DNA from: Gilvimarinus sp. DA14
GTDB taxonomy: Bacteria; Pseudomonadota; Gammaproteobacteria; Pseudomonadales; Cellvibrionaceae
Length of the DNA stretch: 64,000 bases
NCBI RefSeq assembly: GCF_024204685.1
Contig: NZ_CP100350.1
Coordinates: 1,426,001-1,490,000, forward strand
Direction of reading: 5' to 3'
Part shown: positions 56,626 through 64,000 of the stretch, in pieces
Layout of the letters: each line of letters begins with the position of its first letter
Numbering within the stretch: position 1 is the stretch's first letter
Notes under the pieces: generated by a model
The model's input: the letters and a program-made list of their open reading frames with translations, nothing else
Told to the model about the DNA's origin: nothing
The model's database searches: none
Made by a program: the position numbers and the translations under genes

Positions 56626-57051
56626 ATGATTACTTATCTCTACTGGGGTGGCGTTATTACCCTGGCCATGGTGGTGTTGATACTGCTGGGTAAAAATAAC
56701 TTCTGGCGCAGTGCCATCGGCGGAGCACTTATTGTTTTTATTGGCGGCTGGGCGGCCTATTACTTTCACTTCGAACAGGTGTTTGTAAAACGCTACGGCG
56801 GGGTGATGACCATCACCATACCCGAAGGCCAGCAACACATAACCGCAACCTGGAAAGATGACAATCTCTGGATTGAAAACTACGACCCCAAGACTAACAC
56901 TTGTCACTTTAACGAATACTCCAAAGGGAATATTCTGCAAGGTAAAGTGAGCTTGAAAAACTGCAACCCGCTCGGGGTTGGCAGCAGTGCGGCACGCTTA
57001 AGCGCGGCGAGCAGGCAAGCCCCGCAAGCGGTTGAAGAACTCAGCCCTTAA
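56626..57051 (+). CDS. Small membrane protein of unknown function
   Basis: A 141-residue protein from ATG at 56626, which follows AGGA by 7 bases (GTG at 56620 is possible). It has two membrane helices (about 5-20 YLYWGGVITLAMVVLIL and 28-45 IGGALIVFIGGWAAYYF), then a soluble beta-rich C-terminal part (VMTITIPEGQQHITATWKDD, LWIENYDPKTNTCHFNEYS). I do not recognise the family. A small unknown protein between mltF and tadA also occurs in related gammaproteobacteria. Its end overlaps the tadA-fusion gene by 11 bp on the other strand. Confidence 0.65.
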   Translation: MITYLYWGGVITLAMVVLILLGKNNFWRSAIGGALIVFIGGWAAYYFHFEQVFVKRYGGVMTITIPEGQQHITATWKDDNLWIENYDPKTNTCHFNEYSKGNILQGKVSLKNCNPLGVGSSAARLSAASRQAPQAVEELSP

Positions 57052-57781
57052 GCGCTTTCTTTTCAGCCCGCCGGCGTTTAAAAAACGCCTGCAATTGTTG
57101 CTGACAGGCCTCGCGCTCAACCCCGGGAGTGAGGCTAATAGAGTGATTAAAATAGGGCGCGTCTAGCAAACGCGCCTGGCTTTCCACCACCCCGGCTTTA
57201 GGCTCTACCGTGCCATACACCAAACGGGAAATTCGACTGTGCACAATTGCGCCGGTGCACATGGTGCAGGGCTCAAGGGTAACGTACAAAGTGCAATCGG
57301 CCAGACGGTAATTACCCAACTGGCGCGCCGCATCGCGCAGCGCCATCATTTCAGCGTGCGCTGTAGGGTCACAGGCGCCGATGGGGCGATTATAGCCGCG
57401 CCCCACCACTACCCCATCGCGTACCACCAAAGCTCCCACAGGCACTTCGTCGTTATCTCCGGCACGCTCGGCAAGGGCCATGGCCTCGCGCATCCAATGG
57501 CGGTCGTCGTCGCTGGCGGGCATTTGCGCTGACTCACCGCGGGCGCGGCGTTCGGCTTCATCCACACTCATAGGCGCGACAAATGCAAAGCGCGGTATCG
57601 CTACCCCGTCACGCTCGACCGACTCGGTAAACATTGCCAGCGGGCGCACCCACCAAGAGTAATCCCCGTACAGGCAGCGGTACACCACCAGCGCTTCTTC
57701 GGTTTCGCTGTGGGTGGCAATGCGGTAAACAAAGTAATCACTGCCTTTGTAATGGCGGTATAAACCGGGGCTGATTTGCAT
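57041..57781 (-). CDS. tadA: DUF1653-TadA fusion, tRNA adenosine(34) deaminase
   Basis: Two domains are joined in one frame. The N-terminal 70 residues match DUF1653 (GLYRHYKGSDYFVYRIATHS, YRCLYGDYSWWVRPLAMF, PRFAFV). From about residue 94 there is a complete tRNA adenosine deaminase: DEVPVGALVVRDG, zinc-ligand/proton-shuttle AHAEM (142-144 HAE), PCTMC (171-175) and GTVEPKAGVVES. TadA converts A34 to inosine in tRNA-Arg. I start at ATG 57781; GTG at 57787 is possible. An internal start at residue 87 (MPASDDDRHW) could also make TadA alone. It follows the halogenase operon by 43 bp on the same strand. Confidence 0.9.
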   Translation of the reverse strand: MQISPGLYRHYKGSDYFVYRIATHSETEEALVVYRCLYGDYSWWVRPLAMFTESVERDGVAIPRFAFVAPMSVDEAERRARGESAQMPASDDDRHWMREAMALAERAGDNDEVPVGALVVRDGVVVGRGYNRPIGACDPTAHAEMMALRDAARQLGNYRLADCTLYVTLEPCTMCTGAIVHSRISRLVYGTVEPKAGVVESQARLLDAPYFNHSISLTPGVEREACQQQLQAFFKRRRAEKKALKG

Positions 57782-57824
57782 AAACACTCTGGGCTGGAAA
57801 AAGCCGCTATTTTAGAGCCTAGGT

Positions 57825-59339
57825 TTAGGTAACGCCATGGGCGGCAAGCAATTGATTATGGTTTGTAAAGTTAAGGCCACAGCGGCGAATAAATTCTGCC
57901 AGCTCGGTCAACTCACCACGGCCGTTGTCAGGTGCCGCGCTCGCCTTGGCATCCAGCGCGGGAAAAAGCCCGTAACCGGCCAGCAGGCAGGCCCAGGATT
58001 TTGCCTGATAGCTGCCCTCAAGATTGTACTTGCGCATATCAGCGGCAAAGTTATCGCTGTGGCGCCACAGATGCAGCACCGCCTGTAACGATTCAGAGAG
58101 TGCGTTATTCGCCGCGTTATCGCGCCAATAAGCCGTGTCCGTGCGCTGATTCACCTTGTAGTGGCAAACAATGTAATCGCGAATACCACTAAACTTTGCG
58201 CCAATCTCACGATTAAAGTCATCCTGATATCGACCGCTAAAATCGCCGTCTTCAAAACGTTTAATAAACTGCATAATGGTGTTGAACGTCAGCGCCAAAG
58301 CCGTGGCTTCCAGAGGCTCGATAAACCCCTGCGCCAGCCCTACCGCCACACAGTTGTGGCGCCAATGCTGCTGCACCACCCCCACCTTCATTTGCAGGTG
58401 CCGGGCGCTAACCTCGGCATCCTGCAGCCCTAAGTGCTGGCGCAATTCAGTTTCGGCCTGGTCTGCGCTCAAGTGCGCCGAGCTGTAAACATAACCATTA
58501 CCACAGCGATTACGCAGAGGAATTCGCCAAGCCCAGCCGTTAGATAGGGCGGTAGAATCAGTGGCCGGGGTAATTTCAAGCGCAGCGTCAGTGGGCAATA
58601 CAACAGCTGCATCGTTAAACAAATTGTCGCGGTAGCTGGTAAAAGGCACTTGCAGAGCATCCTGCAATAGCAGAGATTTAAAGCCGGTGCAGTCGATAAA
58701 AAAATCCGCTTGTACAGTGCGGCTATCATCCAGCCGTAAACGGCTAATTTCTCCCATCTCGTTTAACTGCACCTGAGCCACGTTGCCCTCAATACGCTCG
58801 ACCCCTAAGAACTCGGCCTTGGCAGCCAGAAACTTGCCCAGCAGCGCTGCATCAAAGTGGTAGCCGTACGCCACATTAAAAGGGAAACACTCAGCGGCAA
58901 TAGGGCCCAAGTTGTTGCGGGTTAAGTAAGATTCAAGGAAATATTGATCTGGGTGAGGGGTTTCCGACCGGCCGAGACGCCGCGCCTGAATATGTTTAAA
59001 AAACATAGGCATGGTCAGATCATCCGTCTGCGCCGGAAACGGATGAAAATAACGCTCGAAGCCCGGCACCGATGACCAGTTGGAAAAATAAATGCCGTTT
59101 TTATACGTGGCATTGCAACGGGGCATCCACTCGGACTCAGCAATTCCCAAGGTATCAAAAAAAATTTTTAGATGCGGCGTACTGCCCTCGCCCACCCCTA
59201 CCGTGCCAATATTGTCAGACTCGAGCAAACGCACGTTAATATCCGGCCAACGCGACGCCATCAAGGTCGCGGCCATCCAGCCTGAAGTACCACCGCCAAC
59301 AATTAATAGGGTTTTCGGCTTTTGTGATTTGCCCACCAC
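57825..59339 (-). CDS. Flavin-dependent halogenase, tryptophan-halogenase family (copy 1)
   Basis: A 504-residue FADH2-dependent halogenase. It has the FAD loop IVGGGTSGW (about 13-21), VGVGEGSTPHL, the catalytic Lys80 in CNATYKNGIYFSNW (aligned from memory to Lys79 of PrnA), the diagnostic GWAWRIP (268-274) that excludes monooxygenation, and EPLEATA with Glu344 (PrnA Glu346). The usual ESTG is EATA here. The enzyme should oxidise Cl- or Br- and transfer it to an aromatic substrate that is unknown. It lies 28 bp after the second halogenase gene and before tadA. A flavin reductase must come from elsewhere. Confidence 0.9.
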   Translation of the reverse strand: MVGKSQKPKTLLIVGGGTSGWMAATLMASRWPDINVRLLESDNIGTVGVGEGSTPHLKIFFDTLGIAESEWMPRCNATYKNGIYFSNWSSVPGFERYFHPFPAQTDDLTMPMFFKHIQARRLGRSETPHPDQYFLESYLTRNNLGPIAAECFPFNVAYGYHFDAALLGKFLAAKAEFLGVERIEGNVAQVQLNEMGEISRLRLDDSRTVQADFFIDCTGFKSLLLQDALQVPFTSYRDNLFNDAAVVLPTDAALEITPATDSTALSNGWAWRIPLRNRCGNGYVYSSAHLSADQAETELRQHLGLQDAEVSARHLQMKVGVVQQHWRHNCVAVGLAQGFIEPLEATALALTFNTIMQFIKRFEDGDFSGRYQDDFNREIGAKFSGIRDYIVCHYKVNQRTDTAYWRDNAANNALSESLQAVLHLWRHSDNFAADMRKYNLEGSYQAKSWACLLAGYGLFPALDAKASAAPDNGRGELTELAEFIRRCGLNFTNHNQLLAAHGVT

Positions 59340-59367
59340 TTTTACCTCTTCTTAGGGCCGGCCGACA

Positions 59368-60879
59368 TTAGCGGCTGTGCAACTGATTTAACCAGGCGCG
59401 GTGCGAGCTGAGCGCTTGCACCGCTTTCTCACACCAGGCGTTGTGCTCGCGTATTTTCGCCTCCGCCAGTGGAATTTCTGACGGGTTCAGGGCCGGTAAA
59501 CGGGTGGGGAAATACATGCCGTAGAGCACGTACATATAACTTTGCTGATTAAATAAATCCACCGTGCTAAAAAAGTCGGTGCGTTTGGGCGAAGCAATTT
59601 TCCACAGCGCCAATCGCTCGGCCAGCACATCCGATAACTTGGCTCGGTCGGTACAATCGACCCAGAAATCCGAGTCCCGACGATCGGAAATACAATAGTG
59701 CAACTGAATGAAATCGATGGTGCGCTCCCAGATATACTCCACCCAGTCGTTGCAGTGACGCGATAAAAGCGCAATATCGTCTGTGTCGCGAGGAAAATGG
59801 TCCGCCAGCAGCGCCGCACAGAAATCCGTCACCATAATGGAGGTGGCCTCCAAAGGCTCAACAAACCCTTGCGATAATCCCAGCGCGGCGCAGTTTTTAT
59901 GCCAGAAATATTGCCGATACCCCGCCTGCATAGGCACCTTGCGCAAATTCGCCGCTTCGGCATCAAACCCCAGATAGCGGGAAAACTCTGCCACGGCCTG
60001 CGACTCACTCATATGCGACGATGAATACACAAAGCCCGTGCCGCGCCGATGAGGCAGGGGGATGTCCCAAATCCATCCCGCACTGTGGGCTTTAGCGGTG
60101 GTGTAAGGCTGCACCTCATCGCTGGGCTCGGTCGGCACCTGTACGGCCAGCGCCGTGTCCGTTGGGATTTGCTCAGTTTTCGCTAAAAACGGCACTTGCA
60201 AAGCCTGCCCCAGTAAACGCGAGGCAAAGCCCGAACAGTCGATATAAAAATCAAACGCCTCTTCACCGCCCGAGGCAAACTGCAAACGATCAATACTGCC
60301 ATCATCGCCCATCACCACGTGTTCGATAGTTGCAAACTTGTGACGAACGCCAAAGCGAGTAAGGGCATTATCAGCGAGCAGTTGCGCAAACTTTCCCGCA
60401 TCAAAGTGATACGCGTAGTGCACCACCCCATCGTAGGGAGACGACGAAGGATGCTTGGGGCCTATATTGTGCTCGGCCAGCGCATGCATAGCCGAGAGTT
60501 CAGAAAACGCCATTTGCTGTTGGTGGTGCATCCAATAGTGGCTGATATCCACCCCTACAGGAAAAGGCGCTACAAACGGATGATAGTAATAATGGTCCGC
60601 CCCGTACTTGTCAGCATCCATCCAGTTGGCAAACTTGATACCCAACTTAAAGGTGGCCTGACACTTGGCCATAAACTCGCGCTCGTCGATACCAAAGCGC
60701 TGCAGAGTAGCGCGTATATTGGGCACAGTGCCCTCGCCGACGCCAATGGTGGGTACATCCTTGGATTCGATCAGGCAGATCTCCACCTCTGGGTCGCGGC
60801 CCACGGATAGCCCCAGGTAATTCGCCGCCAACCAACCGGCGGTACCGCCGCCCACAATGGCGATTTTTTTTATCTTCAT
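59368..60879 (-). CDS. Flavin-dependent halogenase, tryptophan-halogenase family (copy 2)
   Basis: A second 503-residue flavin-dependent halogenase, only distantly similar to its neighbour. The FAD loop is AIVGGGTAGWLAAN, then TIGVGEGTVPNIRATLQRFG, catalytic Lys78 in CQATFKLGIKFANW, GWIWDIP (268-274) and Glu344 in EPLEATS. The two paralogues differ strongly in the middle region (about 85-200), which in known enzymes lines the substrate pocket, so they may act on different positions or substrates. It starts 10 bp after the FIH-like cupin gene. Halide and substrate specificity are not predictable from sequence. Confidence 0.92.
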   Translation of the reverse strand: MKIKKIAIVGGGTAGWLAANYLGLSVGRDPEVEICLIESKDVPTIGVGEGTVPNIRATLQRFGIDEREFMAKCQATFKLGIKFANWMDADKYGADHYYYHPFVAPFPVGVDISHYWMHHQQQMAFSELSAMHALAEHNIGPKHPSSSPYDGVVHYAYHFDAGKFAQLLADNALTRFGVRHKFATIEHVVMGDDGSIDRLQFASGGEEAFDFYIDCSGFASRLLGQALQVPFLAKTEQIPTDTALAVQVPTEPSDEVQPYTTAKAHSAGWIWDIPLPHRRGTGFVYSSSHMSESQAVAEFSRYLGFDAEAANLRKVPMQAGYRQYFWHKNCAALGLSQGFVEPLEATSIMVTDFCAALLADHFPRDTDDIALLSRHCNDWVEYIWERTIDFIQLHYCISDRRDSDFWVDCTDRAKLSDVLAERLALWKIASPKRTDFFSTVDLFNQQSYMYVLYGMYFPTRLPALNPSEIPLAEAKIREHNAWCEKAVQALSSHRAWLNQLHSR

Positions 60880-60889
60880 ACTGCGCGAC

Positions 60890-61906
60890 TCACTTCAACA
60901 AGCTGATAAACCAGTCTTTAACCTGGCGCTCAAACTCCGGCGACATTTCCCCCAGCACACCCTGTTTATGGGCCGGAATATAAGACTGAGGGTCTTCCCC
61001 TTGTTTAAACAGATAGTGATCAAACATGGCTCGCCAGGCGTTGCGCTGCGCGGGGGTTAAATCGCGCATCGCCATAGCAGCAAAATTTAAACTTTGCAGC
61101 GGCGTAGGCTTTTGTTGCGGTTTACCGATCGAACCATTCCACCAGTAATTCATCAAGCCGTTAACCTCGGCCAGCGAATCCACGTGGTGCCACCAAAGCA
61201 TGGGAATAAAAATCGCATCGCCGGGTTCAAGCACCGCGCTATAGGCGTTTTTTAAAGCCTCGCGGTAACGCGGGTAGCGATCAAAATCCGGGGCGTGCAG
61301 TGACACTAAACTCACCGGTGCACCGGCGGGCGTGTAATCCAGCGGCCCGGGATACAAGTTAGCCACTTGCTCGGGTGGGAACAGCACAAAGCGCCGCTTA
61401 CCGGCCACGACGCAGGCCAAGTTATCGGAGCCGTCATAGTGCGCGGAGACAGACACTTTATTGCCCACCCACAGCTTGGGTGCTACAGGCTCGGCGAATA
61501 AAGTGGCCGGATTGGCGGCGGACAACCCCGGCAGAATTTTATCCACCGCCACCCCCTGTACCGCTACAGAGGGTTTTACGTCGCGACCGGCCAACTCCAG
61601 CAACCGCCCCAAGAACAAATCCAGCCGCTCGCCGCCTTCAATATAATTAAAGCCATCCAGATTATCGTTGTAAAAAAAACGCCCCTCAATGGCAGGATGG
61701 CCGAGCACTACATTGACGTGCTCGCCACGATAAAACTGCGCAAGATAACGACAGAAATATTCATCCGACTGGAATGATGCCTCAACCAGCGGCCAGTCGC
61801 TCACCAGACCGCGAATGACCACGGGTTTTTGTTGCGGCACTATGTCGTTAAAAAATTGCTCGCGGCTTACACCCCGGTACTCTGGAAAGCTTAAAAAATT
61901 CTGCAT
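60890..61906 (-). CDS. FIH-like cupin/JmjC-family protein
   Basis: A 338-residue Cupin_8/JmjC-type protein. It keeps the 2-oxoglutarate oxygenase iron triad: VSAHYDGSDNLACVV (His156, Asp158) and FIPMLWWHHVDS (His240 or 241). The region between, GKRRFVLFPPEQVANLYPGP and APDFDRYPRYREALKNAY, closely resembles human factor-inhibiting HIF. The substrate of these bacterial proteins is unknown; hydroxylation of a protein or small molecule is possible. It is the first gene after the TonB-receptor terminator and lies 10 bp before the halogenase pair, so the three form one operon. Confidence 0.87.
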   Translation of the reverse strand: MQNFLSFPEYRGVSREQFFNDIVPQQKPVVIRGLVSDWPLVEASFQSDEYFCRYLAQFYRGEHVNVVLGHPAIEGRFFYNDNLDGFNYIEGGERLDLFLGRLLELAGRDVKPSVAVQGVAVDKILPGLSAANPATLFAEPVAPKLWVGNKVSVSAHYDGSDNLACVVAGKRRFVLFPPEQVANLYPGPLDYTPAGAPVSLVSLHAPDFDRYPRYREALKNAYSAVLEPGDAIFIPMLWWHHVDSLAEVNGLMNYWWNGSIGKPQQKPTPLQSLNFAAMAMRDLTPAQRNAWRAMFDHYLFKQGEDPQSYIPAHKQGVLGEMSPEFERQVKDWFISLLK

Positions 61907-61954
61907 AGCGAAACTGCTTTACTGCATGTGCGTAGGTAAAATGACAAGTTAAAC

Positions 61955-61990
61955 GAAAAATGCGCGCGATAGAAGCTATCGCGCGCATTC
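61955..61990 (-). terminator. Strong hairpin between TonB receptor and cupin-halogenase operon
   Basis: ATGCGCGCGATAG and CTATCGCGCGCAT are perfect 13-base arms (61960-61972 and 61976-61988) around AAG. On the minus strand a TTTTT-C-GTTT tract follows, so it terminates the TonB-receptor transcript, or attenuates it before the cupin-halogenase genes. Confidence 0.92.
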
Positions 61991-62014
61991 GCTTGCGTCA
62001 CTTGCTCACACTTA

Positions 62015-64000
62015 TCAGAAGGTAGCGCGTACACTCAAAGCGTAGCGACGGTCTGTGGTAAAGCTAAGTGCCTGGGTTTTATCACCCTCTTGGTTCAACT
62101 GGTACTGAGTTTTGGTTTCCGAGTTAAGCAAGTTGCTGCCCTCGATACCCACTTTCCAGTTATCGTTGATGGTGTAGTAAAAGCTTGCATCCAGGTGATC
62201 CACAGGTTCTGCGTAAGCCGGTACAAACTCTTCCGACTCACGACGGGTCAGCAGATACTCTGAGCGCCAGTTGTAGGCCACCCGCAAGGATACATCACCG
62301 TACTCGTACATACCGACAATGTTCAGGTTTTCATCCGAGTAACCCTGCAGCGGCAAGCCCGAGAATACGCGGAAGCTGTTGCGGTTATCCGTTACCTGTG
62401 AACCGTCGTTGTTGAAAATCAAATCCGAGGTGCTTTCGTTCAGCGGATCTTCCAACCCGTCCTGGTCGATATAGGTGTAGTTGAACTGCAGACCTAAACC
62501 ACTCCAGGCGCCGGGTAAAAAGTCGTAGAACTGCTGGTAAGAGAATTCCGCCCCGCGAATGGTGCCCGAGCCGGTGTTATCCGGGCCGTAAGCCGATACC
62601 GGATAGGTGTAACCGGCGTGCTCCAGCTCGTAGGCAAAGCTCTTGTTGCGAATAATGTTATCCAGATCTTTCTGAAACAAAGCCAGACTCACCGAACCCA
62701 CCGGCGCAAAGTACCACTCCAGAGTTAAATCCAAATTAACGGATTCTTCCGGCTCCAGGTAGGGGTTACGCGATACCGCGGTAATTTCGATATCTTCAAT
62801 GCCCACTACCGGGTTGGTGACTTCATCGCGGCCCGAGGATGGATCTTGCAACACGTTTTCATAGTCCAGACTCACCACCATGCTGTTGCGGCTGTCCAGC
62901 AGGCTGGGATAGTAAAGCGCCTTAGACGCGGCAAAGCGCAGCACCAAGTCGTCGGTTAACCCCAAACTTAAATTCAAGCTTGGCAGCACTGTGTCATAGT
63001 CAGTGCCCTGTACCGTACTCTGTTCGGCGCTGCCATCGGCCAGCGCGTACAAATCCGGATGATCGTTTGCAATAACGTCGGCCAGCGAGTCGGTGCCGCG
63101 CTTATCCACCGGCGGCAGTACTTCAAAGCCGGTAGACTCAAGCTGATAGCTTACATAGCGCAAACCGATATTACCTCTAAGTGGCATGGCCATGTCGAAC
63201 TCAAAGTCGCCGCGAATATACGCCTCGGTGCGCTCTTCGCCAGACGAACTCAACTGATAGACTGAGAAAGGCCCATCAATCCGGTTGTTCATATCTTCGT
63301 AAGGAACACCGCAGCGGCCGCTGCCATCACTGGCATTACCCACCGCATTCCACACACCACAGCCATCGCGTAGAGTATTGGCAAAATCCTCTACCAAATC
63401 CATGCGCGGGAACAGGAAGCTGTTGTACTCACCCTGCACCACTTCACCGTTGTAGTGATCGGCAAAGCTTACCCGCTCAAACAGATCTGGCTGTTGTTGT
63501 GGCGACGCATTGTAGCGATCACCCTGTACCCACGGAGTACCCAGCGCGGTCCAGTTAGAATACTCGGTATCGCCAATTTCCAGCTCTTTATCCGAGTAGT
63601 AAGCACCGCCTTTAATGGCGGTAAGTGGGCCGTCAAAGGTGTACTCCACATCAATTTTAAAGGCATCCATAGAGGCGTCAGAGCGCACCTCCTGCTGCAT
63701 GCCGTTACCCAGGTATAAATCCGGGTTAGGGGCGTCGCCCACGGTATTGATGGTGGGGTCAGATACGCGCGAATTTAAGTACTCAATGGTTGGCGTATCG
63801 CCGCGCAAATCGAGGAAAAACGGCGCCACTTCGGCAGTCAGGTCACCGCGCACTCGACTGGTTAGGTTGTAGTTGTGAGTGGTCTGGGTTGAATCCACGT
63901 GCTGATAATCCAATACCACTTTTAAACGGGTAGTGGGATTTAACTCAACATTAAACGAGGTATCTTCAACCGTATCTTCGTTGTAATTCCAACGACTGCG
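62015..64000 (-). CDS. TonB-dependent receptor (N-terminus outside window)
   Basis: The C-terminal 660 or so residues of a large outer-membrane TonB-dependent transporter. The frame is open to the window end (RSRWNYNEDTVEDTSFNVEL before the GTG at 63919), so the plug domain and TonB box are missing. The barrel is visible as alternating strands (PLRGNIGLRYVSYQLESTGF, LNLSLGLTDDLVLRFAASKA, ESVNLDLTLEWYFAPVGSVS) and ends with RRYALSVRATF, terminal Phe. It resembles carbohydrate-type receptors of Cellvibrionales and Xanthomonads. It probably imports an oligosaccharide or similar ligand, with the following cupin and halogenase genes under linked control. Confidence 0.92.
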   Translation of the reverse strand, partial: RSRWNYNEDTVEDTSFNVELNPTTRLKVVLDYQHVDSTQTTHNYNLTSRVRGDLTAEVAPFFLDLRGDTPTIEYLNSRVSDPTINTVGDAPNPDLYLGNGMQQEVRSDASMDAFKIDVEYTFDGPLTAIKGGAYYSDKELEIGDTEYSNWTALGTPWVQGDRYNASPQQQPDLFERVSFADHYNGEVVQGEYNSFLFPRMDLVEDFANTLRDGCGVWNAVGNASDGSGRCGVPYEDMNNRIDGPFSVYQLSSSGEERTEAYIRGDFEFDMAMPLRGNIGLRYVSYQLESTGFEVLPPVDKRGTDSLADVIANDHPDLYALADGSAEQSTVQGTDYDTVLPSLNLSLGLTDDLVLRFAASKALYYPSLLDSRNSMVVSLDYENVLQDPSSGRDEVTNPVVGIEDIEITAVSRNPYLEPEESVNLDLTLEWYFAPVGSVSLALFQKDLDNIIRNKSFAYELEHAGYTYPVSAYGPDNTGSGTIRGAEFSYQQFYDFLPGAWSGLGLQFNYTYIDQDGLEDPLNESTSDLIFNNDGSQVTDNRNSFRVFSGLPLQGYSDENLNIVGMYEYGDVSLRVAYNWRSEYLLTRRESEEFVPAYAEPVDHLDASFYYTINDNWKVGIEGSNLLNSETKTQYQLNQEGDKTQALSFTTDRRYALSVRATF

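Follow-up and report, generated by a model that had tools for sequence, protein, structure and literature searches.

A TonB-dependent receptor gene followed by an FIH-like oxygenase and two flavin-dependent halogenases in Gilvimarinus: a possible receptor-tailoring unit

The genome of Gilvimarinus sp. is a single contig of 3.96 Mb, close to those of Gilvimarinus chinensis and G. xylanilyticus (97–98% oxygenase identity). We analyzed a stretch of 64,000 nucleotides from it (G000:C1:1426001-1490000, hereafter the window), at the end of which a four-gene unit spans positions 57825-65326 on the minus strand. It comprises, in order of reading, a TonB-dependent receptor, an oxygenase, halogenase 2 and halogenase 1. 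A sequence-only reading of the window had listed a receptor, a terminator, a cupin/JmjC protein with a complete metal-binding triad and two halogenases in one direction; gene calls and family profiles agree with this description. The features of the locus are the following:

62015..64000, running on to 65326, minus strand: TIGR01782 TonB-dependent receptor (TIGR01782 profile; AlphaFold model of an orthologue)
63551..63553, minus strand: codon of Trp592, the proposed target residue, in the second of two outer loops considered (clade invariance; model)
61958..61990, minus strand: terminator-like hairpin in the receptor/oxygenase gap, 15 pairs and a T-rich tail (read from 61990 to 61958; not specific to linked receptors)
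60890..61906, minus strand: FIH-like Fe(II)/2-oxoglutarate oxygenase (Cupin_8), 338 aa (PF13621; H156/D158/H240)
59368..60879, minus strand: flavin-dependent halogenase 2, 503 aa (PF04820; K78/E344, WIWDIP)
57825..59339, minus strand: flavin-dependent halogenase 1, 504 aa (PF04820; K80/E344, WAWRIP)

The gap between receptor and oxygenase is 108 bp long, and those on either side of halogenase 2 are 10 bp (to the oxygenase) and 28 bp (to halogenase 1), reproducing the spacing reported earlier. The receptor gene (L030:6015-9326) has 1103 codons in its longest frame, which we use for residue numbering, and two fifths of it lie beyond the window. The part inside the window scores 329 bits against TIGR01782 (cut-off 310), the whole gene 584 bits. 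By eye, the probable start is at codon 26, followed by a signal peptide and a TonB-box-like EEVVVRG. The structural statements are based on an AlphaFold model (pLDDT 75.9, pTM 0.78) of the orthologue in G. xylanilyticus, to which the window receptor has 97.3% identity over 1081 residues. The best structural matches of this model were TonB receptors; no close solved relative was found among them, the best being PfeA with a TMq of 0.45. In the model, Trp592 follows, at a distance of 6 residues, a strand expected to lead to the outside, and belongs to a poorly predicted loop of ~104 residues; the tryptophan candidates of the first loop lie near a strand's end and in the loop behind. Judging by the model, the loops bearing these tryptophans would face outwards, since turns on the opposite side are short. 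Another candidate, Trp410, is encoded beyond the window (codon 64097-64099).

The oxygenase matches Pfam family PF13621 with 234 bits. It has a complete HxD...H iron triad, H156, D158 and H240, aligned with H199/D201/H279 of FIH, its best match in the PDB (1.6e-21). This triad is shared with FIH and other JmjC/Cupin_8 protein hydroxylases, and the enzyme may be an FIH-like Cupin_8 protein hydroxylase. It differs from FIH in that only residues 148-275 align and in that Arg171 is found at the position of FIH Lys214, presumably a 2-oxoglutarate contact. No signal peptide was seen by eye in the oxygenase or in either halogenase, so all three enzymes should be cytosolic. A fourth oxygenase paralogue of the genome (G000:C1:2101430-2102128) has an in-frame TAA in the matched region and an open frame of 255 aa, and is possibly decaying; its halogenase and receptor neighbours have open frames.

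Both halogenases score far above the PF04820 cut-off of 21 bits (432 and 448 bits) and contain the GxGxxG, catalytic Lys/Glu and WxWxIP elements: GGGTSG, K80, E344 and WAWRIP in halogenase 1, GGGTAG, K78, E344 and WIWDIP in halogenase 2. The Fx.Px.Sx.G signature of flavin-dependent halogenases is altered in both, with FIEPLEATA and FVEPLEATS carrying Ala instead of Ser, and Ala or Ser instead of Gly. Halogenase 1 aligns with BrvH of Brevundimonas over residues 9-469; its own model, built from six sequences, is too poor (pLDDT 61.6) for measurements of the pocket, where an open site of the BrvH/Xcc4156 type would show short loops and a solvent-accessible catalytic Lys, and a fold search with it gives the halogenase fold. 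The closest solved relatives of halogenase 2 are PDB entries 9lu2, 9ltb and 2pyx (366–401 bits), the last of which is presumably from Shewanella. Entries 9LTB, 9LU2 and 9LUQ are not named in any paper of the literature that we searched. Halogenases acting on free tryptophan (PrnA, RebH, PyrH, Thal) have a Trp4-type substrate motif such as YYHGLPPYS, according to the available part of PMC8269204. Neither window enzyme contains the YHG of this closing motif, and halogenase 1 has KYNLEGSYQAKSW at the corresponding place.

These sequences could also be read as those of QhpG-like peptidyl monooxygenases that hydroxylate, rather than halogenate, the receptor tryptophan, in the way QhpG treats its target peptide. 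The best NCBIfam match of halogenase 1 is indeed QhpG, at 37 bits far under the cut-off of 240, and it has a weak PDB match to the peptidyl tryptophan dihydroxylase 7ctq (5.7e-5). The loss of the signature Ser in both enzymes points the same way, as does the scarcity of bromide for carriers in non-marine habitats. The catalytic Lys and Glu, which a monooxygenase would not need, were however retained in 101 of the 106 halogenases examined, and the relatives BrvH and Xcc4156 brominate in vitro (PMC5945002 and PMC7336383, available parts). We consider hydroxylation by these enzymes improbable.

The five enzymes of this set that lack Lys and Glu (L034:6196-7707 and L034:14989-16506 in the same genome, L061:5841-7379, L065:3081-4598 and L066:3404-4978) form triplet-like sets with intact halogenases, which flank them on one or both sides; they occur in Gammaproteobacteria as well as in Alphaproteobacteria and look like conserved non-catalytic partners. 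In G. xylanilyticus, an internal deletion has reduced halogenase 1 to its two ends (L058:12540-12790); the receptor, oxygenase and halogenase 2 frames are open.

The window pair belongs to a class for which enzymes have been expressed and crystallized and no native substrate has been found (PMC5945002, PMC7336383; here and below, statements on the cited papers refer to the parts of them that were available). In agreement with the sequence-only reading, which had called native substrates unknown, BrvH shows weak bromination of indole, none of tryptophan, and its natural substrate is unknown (PMC5945002). Neither BrvH nor Xcc4156 halogenates free tryptophan; both have open active sites, that of BrvH resembling the site of the peptide halogenase MibH, and are suspected to act on peptides (PMC5945002, PMC7336383). 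Like them, the window halogenases have a PF04820-type fold, catalytic Lys and Glu and no free-tryptophan motif; they differ in reading LEATA and LEATS where BrvH has LESTS. Receptor-linked halogenases are present in Brevundimonas (genomes G003 and G010). Within the searched text of four papers (PMC5945002, PMC7336383, PMC8269204, PMC12615548) we found neither TonB nor receptor: both words are absent from the main text on BrvH, and 'receptor' from that on Xcc4156. No word starting with 'halogen' occurs in the main text of the 2007 article on Xanthomonas receptors (PMC1790865). Our literature search, which left most subscription journals outside its coverage and may have missed a published link, returned no paper linking these halogenases to TonB receptors and, within the same coverage, no description of receptor tailoring of the kind discussed below.

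The association of the enzymes with receptors extends over the whole genome. Gilvimarinus sp. has 21 full-length PF04820 genes (not counting a 423-aa frame with two weak matches of 46 and 42 bits), 4 Cupin_8 genes, 2 SapC genes and 29 TIGR01782 receptors over the cut-off. For 20 of the 21 halogenases such a receptor is found at a distance of no more than 6 kb; this neighbourhood makes up 9.6% of the genome. Eleven receptors have a halogenase directly downstream. The remaining full-length halogenase (G000:C1:2932762-2934129) has intact catalytic residues. In 12 further genomes, at least 81 of 92 halogenases had a TIGR01782 receptor no more than 6 kb away; the corresponding zone covers about 3.9% of the sequence, as estimated from rounded genome sizes. 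The count is a minimum, with split and partial receptors dropped, at most 36 receptor candidates scored per genome and some receptors missed. The 92 halogenases are what remained of 102 rows once 10 had been removed as fragments or for scoring no more than 93 bits. The same neighbourhood contains 25 of 29 strong Cupin_8 genes of these genomes (9 of 38 rows, of 143 bits or less, dropped) and 26 of 38 SapC genes. Binomial tails calculated for such linkage overstate the case, since tandem paralogues are not independent. Single genomes examined carry up to about 20 such halogenases.

We then placed linkage on a receptor tree with 156 labelled rows, 61 linked (halogenase directly downstream) and 95 unlinked; a further 11 receptors, which have a halogenase nearby that does not directly follow them, were left out. 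On this tree, linkage switches 12 times, compared with a mean of 48.5 (minimum 40) in 200 label shuffles. Thus, the enzymes stay with particular receptor lineages. Five gene orders of the unit were found across Gamma- and Alphaproteobacteria: (1) receptor-SapC-oxygenase-halogenase; (2) receptor-halogenase-SapC-oxygenase-halogenase; (3) receptor-oxygenase-halogenase(-halogenase), the type seen in the window and in L058-L064; (4) receptor-halogenase-halogenase*-halogenase with a divergent oxygenase; and (5) receptor-halogenase with an oppositely directed oxygenase.

The frequent presence of SapC raises the question whether the substrate is a protein other than the receptor (candidates being SapC, a surface protein exported alongside and a peptide whose gene lies elsewhere), with the receptor merely co-regulated. 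The proximity of 26 of the 38 SapC genes to a receptor would fit, and there is a precedent in the flavin-dependent peptide halogenases MibH, SrpI and MppI, which act on ribosomal precursor peptides in RiPP (ribosomally synthesized and post-translationally modified peptide) pathways, MibH and SrpI on tryptophan (PMC12615548); the substrate proposed here would differ from theirs in being a receptor of ~1080 residues. However, SapC, which the sequence-only reading had expected nearby, is absent from the window locus and present at other loci, and the 21 halogenases of the genome contrast with just 2 SapC genes. The gaps of 10, 28 and 108 bp hold no RiPP-type precursor gene and are too small for one of usual size; this covers the space between the operon genes, small genes further away not having been searched for. 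The receptor is also the commonest partner by far, as the counts above indicate (20 of 21, at least 81 of 92). We regard another protein substrate as quite improbable. SapC probably also has a role outside the unit, since some SapC genes (G000:C1:1121001-1121666 and 11 of the 38 in other genomes) have no listed receptor and no halogenase in their vicinity.

If receptors were modified, a candidate target residue might distinguish linked from unlinked ones. In the discovery genome, Trp592 is the residue most enriched in linked receptors (11 of 12, versus 4 of 16 unlinked). Over the whole tree, a tryptophan in the second loop, at +12 to +30 from the invariant Gly574, was found in 44 of 61 linked and 27 of 95 unlinked receptors (P = 9.5e-8); outside the discovery genome, with +9 to +36, the counts were 36 of 50 and 25 of 78 (P = 1.2e-5). 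Both the W[FY] pattern used below and the limits of the loop stretches were picked after viewing the sequences, and P-values are uncorrected for that choice. First-loop tryptophan was present in 52 of 61 linked versus 34 of 95 unlinked receptors, and tryptophan in both loops in 41 versus 11. The latter state followed the kind of partner (10 near-only rows set aside): 24 of 29 oxygenase-linked receptors had it, 18 of 35 with halogenase only and 10 of 93 with neither. In the 12 non-discovery genomes the respective counts were 20 of 23 with oxygenase and halogenase, 12 of 27 and 8 of 77. First-loop W followed by F or Y showed the same gradation (20 of 29, 10 of 35 and 3 of 93). At oxygenase-anchored loci the first-loop residue is W in 35 of 38 receptors, including most of those without second-loop tryptophan. 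Two receptors with an oxygenase and no nearby halogenase (L031:9658-13731 and G006:C8:1855047) keep a first-loop tryptophan.

Within the clade of the window receptor, Trp592 is present in all 20 members (15 linked, 5 near-only) and is the sole near-invariant residue between G574 and G718. All three pure linked clades of at least 5 members (20, 12 and 5) have an invariant second-loop tryptophan, at +19 to +23. None of the five pure unlinked clades of at least 6 members does, and one unlinked clade of 5 has a tryptophan at +46. In a set that overlaps the 12 genomes (L058-L129, one receptor row not anchorable), the second-loop tryptophan was present in 49 of the 59 receptors that a halogenase directly follows, and in 16 of 21 representatives at 70% identity.

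The explanation that we favour, tentatively, is that the locus is a receptor-tailoring unit, that is, a TonB-dependent outer-membrane transporter together with enzymes modifying the transporter chain. The receptor precursor would be made in the cytoplasm and stay unfolded until Sec export. The cytosolic FIH-like oxygenase (using iron, 2-oxoglutarate and O2) and the FADH2-dependent halogenases, whose relatives have solvent-open active sites, could act on it before export. Their targets would be the future outer, ligand-facing loops, most likely Trp592 and a tryptophan of the earlier loop (Trp410 or Trp388). Export and folding would then yield a receptor whose loops are halogenated and/or hydroxylated; this may change ligand binding or hide the receptor from phages and bacteriocins. 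Among the three possibilities raised by the sequence-only reading (modification of the imported ligand, of a protein, or a defensive halogenated product), modification of a protein is thus the one retained, the receptor itself not having been named there. The genes are not new, since the locus belongs to a widespread orphan class; what is new is the reading of the receptor as substrate, for which the genomic evidence is suggestive and not decisive.

Several observations weigh against this explanation. Tests on phylogenetically independent pairs did not support a tie between linkage and tryptophan, since most sister receptors that differ in linkage share the tryptophan state: for the second loop, 1.8 pairs changed the same way, 2.4 the other way and 6.8 showed no difference (2.0, 2.5 and 5.5 on the first tree), for the first loop 1.8, 0.1 and 9.1, for W[FY] 2.2, 1.1 and 7.6, and for the oxygenase label 0.5, 0 and 9.5. 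The pattern can therefore be one of shared descent, and outer-loop tryptophans may simply bind sugar. Both tryptophans are in the majority in 8 of 19 linked versus 4 of 21 unlinked clades, and 14 of 61 linked receptors have no tryptophan at +9 to +36 of the second loop. G. gilvus (L064) has Phe at the second-loop site with both halogenases intact, and G. xylanilyticus, without intact halogenase 1, retains Trp592, Trp599 and both first-loop tryptophans. Many other receptor columns are as strongly enriched in linked receptors or more so, the top column not being a tryptophan; overall tryptophan content is 14.0 per 1000 in linked and 12.2 in unlinked receptors. GH3 and LacI-type regulator genes recur with the unit (see below), a possible tie with the ligand. 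No modified receptor peptide has been observed.

Two more specific ideas were abandoned. The number of loop tryptophans does not equal the number of halogenases, as NWxxxxxxW in loci with two or three halogenases had suggested, since two such tryptophans accompany a single halogenase in both Cellvibrio L062 and G. xylanilyticus L058. Nor is the loop tryptophan a strict marker of linkage: the pair tests are unsupportive and it is missing from the LKNGRQQVLVD-type receptor group, so that it serves as a lead only.

The surroundings of the unit bear on whether the enzymes could instead modify, or start degrading, the imported ligand in the cytoplasm, such as an aromatic group attached to a glycan from plants or algae. 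Four of the six halogenase-linked loci examined in this genome adjoin glycoside hydrolases: L036 has two GH13 enzymes, one of which contains cyclomaltodextrinase domains, L032 a GH3, L033 a GH16/CBM protein together with an AraC-type regulator, and L038 a GH95. The other two are next to a GDSL lipase (L037) and DUF4382 (L035). Among 24 representative loci elsewhere, clustering of frames gave a receptor in 24, a halogenase in 23, and SapC, a GH3-like enzyme and a LacI-type regulator in 11 each; these loci were picked by the oxygenase, which all of them have by design, and antisense-frame clusters, as judged by position, were excluded. We therefore rejected our earlier assumption of no other conserved gene beside the unit. 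The families of these clusters were assigned by Pfam; tblastn with two GH3 queries found 8 and 10 of the 24 loci.

These neighbours tie the unit to sugar uptake, and a ligand-based reading could claim the same evidence; the adjacency of receptor and enzymes and the bromination of free indole by BrvH in vitro (PMC5945002) would likewise suit it. However, the probable ligands, alpha-glucan, beta-glucan and fucose-containing glycans, would be chemically diverse and without an aromatic ring. Ligand modification is disfavoured because these glycans are non-aromatic and differ by locus, whereas the enzyme class is constant; the neighbours of sister loci belong to sugar families and not to aromatic ones. 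The recurrence of GH3 and LacI-type genes did not change our weighing, because these are sugar genes. Moreover, none of the six neighbours examined at the window locus (TadA, a CaiB-type CoA transferase, a quinone oxidoreductase, PdxH, catalase and MobA) is a carbohydrate enzyme. The window receptor belongs to the same family as TIGR01782 receptors of carbohydrate loci in Xanthomonas and Caulobacter, and sister loci lie beside glycoside hydrolases as those do; the window locus differs from them in this respect. Carbohydrate-active enzymes next to the receptor, by which a polysaccharide utilization locus is recognized, were thus found at four sister loci and not here. On balance, we judge ligand modification unlikely.

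Flavin halogenases are mostly components of natural-product pathways, and TonB receptors are known to take compounds back up in the manner of siderophores. We accordingly considered whether the enzymes make a small halogenated molecule, a signal or a weapon, that is released or taken back up through the receptor. However, the families found in at least 11 of the 24 loci are receptor, oxygenase, halogenase, SapC, GH3 and LacI-type regulator, with no synthase or exporter among them, and 21 halogenases in one genome, tied to receptor lineages, would be unusual for such pathways. The defensive product suggested earlier is disfavoured on the same grounds, and we hold a small-molecule role to be very unlikely.

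Immediately downstream of the unit lies tadA for tRNA adenosine deaminase, fused in one frame to an N-terminal DUF1653 (57041-57787); matches of 243 to 247 residues to this fusion are also present in L058, L059, L063 and L064. Upstream are genes for the CaiB-type CoA transferase, quinone oxidoreductase, PdxH and catalase. The nearest regulator-like gene, as judged by eye, is TetR-like and lies ~9 kb upstream on the opposite strand (L030:18644-19246). Most flanking genes are kept in the Gilvimarinus loci L058, L059, L063 and L064 (no catalase was found in the L064 flanks; the upstream side of L061 was outside the comparison). They were not found in the available stretches of L060 and Cellvibrio L062, where receptor, oxygenase and halogenase persist, so the unit is not bound to its flanks.

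We also considered the terminator-like hairpin, whose conservation at linked loci had seemed striking at first, as a special attenuator between receptor and enzymes and rejected this idea. Hairpins of –18 kcal/mol or better within 130 nt follow 57 of 61 linked receptors and also most unlinked ones (73 of 95), and are thus not specific to the unit. The proportion is higher after linked receptors (Fisher test, P = 0.008, base composition uncontrolled), and hairpin energies are alike (P = 0.21 versus co-directional and P = 0.71 versus oppositely directed unlinked cases).

It is possible, though doubtful on present evidence, that many Proteobacteria halogenate and/or hydroxylate, after translation, outer-loop tryptophans of their own TonB-dependent nutrient receptors, each receptor lineage having dedicated enzymes encoded downstream. 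The large BrvH/Xcc4156-like orphan class would thereby gain a native function, and an outer-membrane transporter would for the first time be seen to undergo enzymatic halogenation. If the neighbouring receptor is the substrate, assays with free aromatic compounds have looked in the wrong place, and the question could be addressed by peptide mass spectrometry of outer membranes. Tailoring of receptors would then add a new level at which nutrient uptake, phage adsorption and receptor specificity are controlled, and the enzymes could be a source of protein halogenases for chemical labelling.

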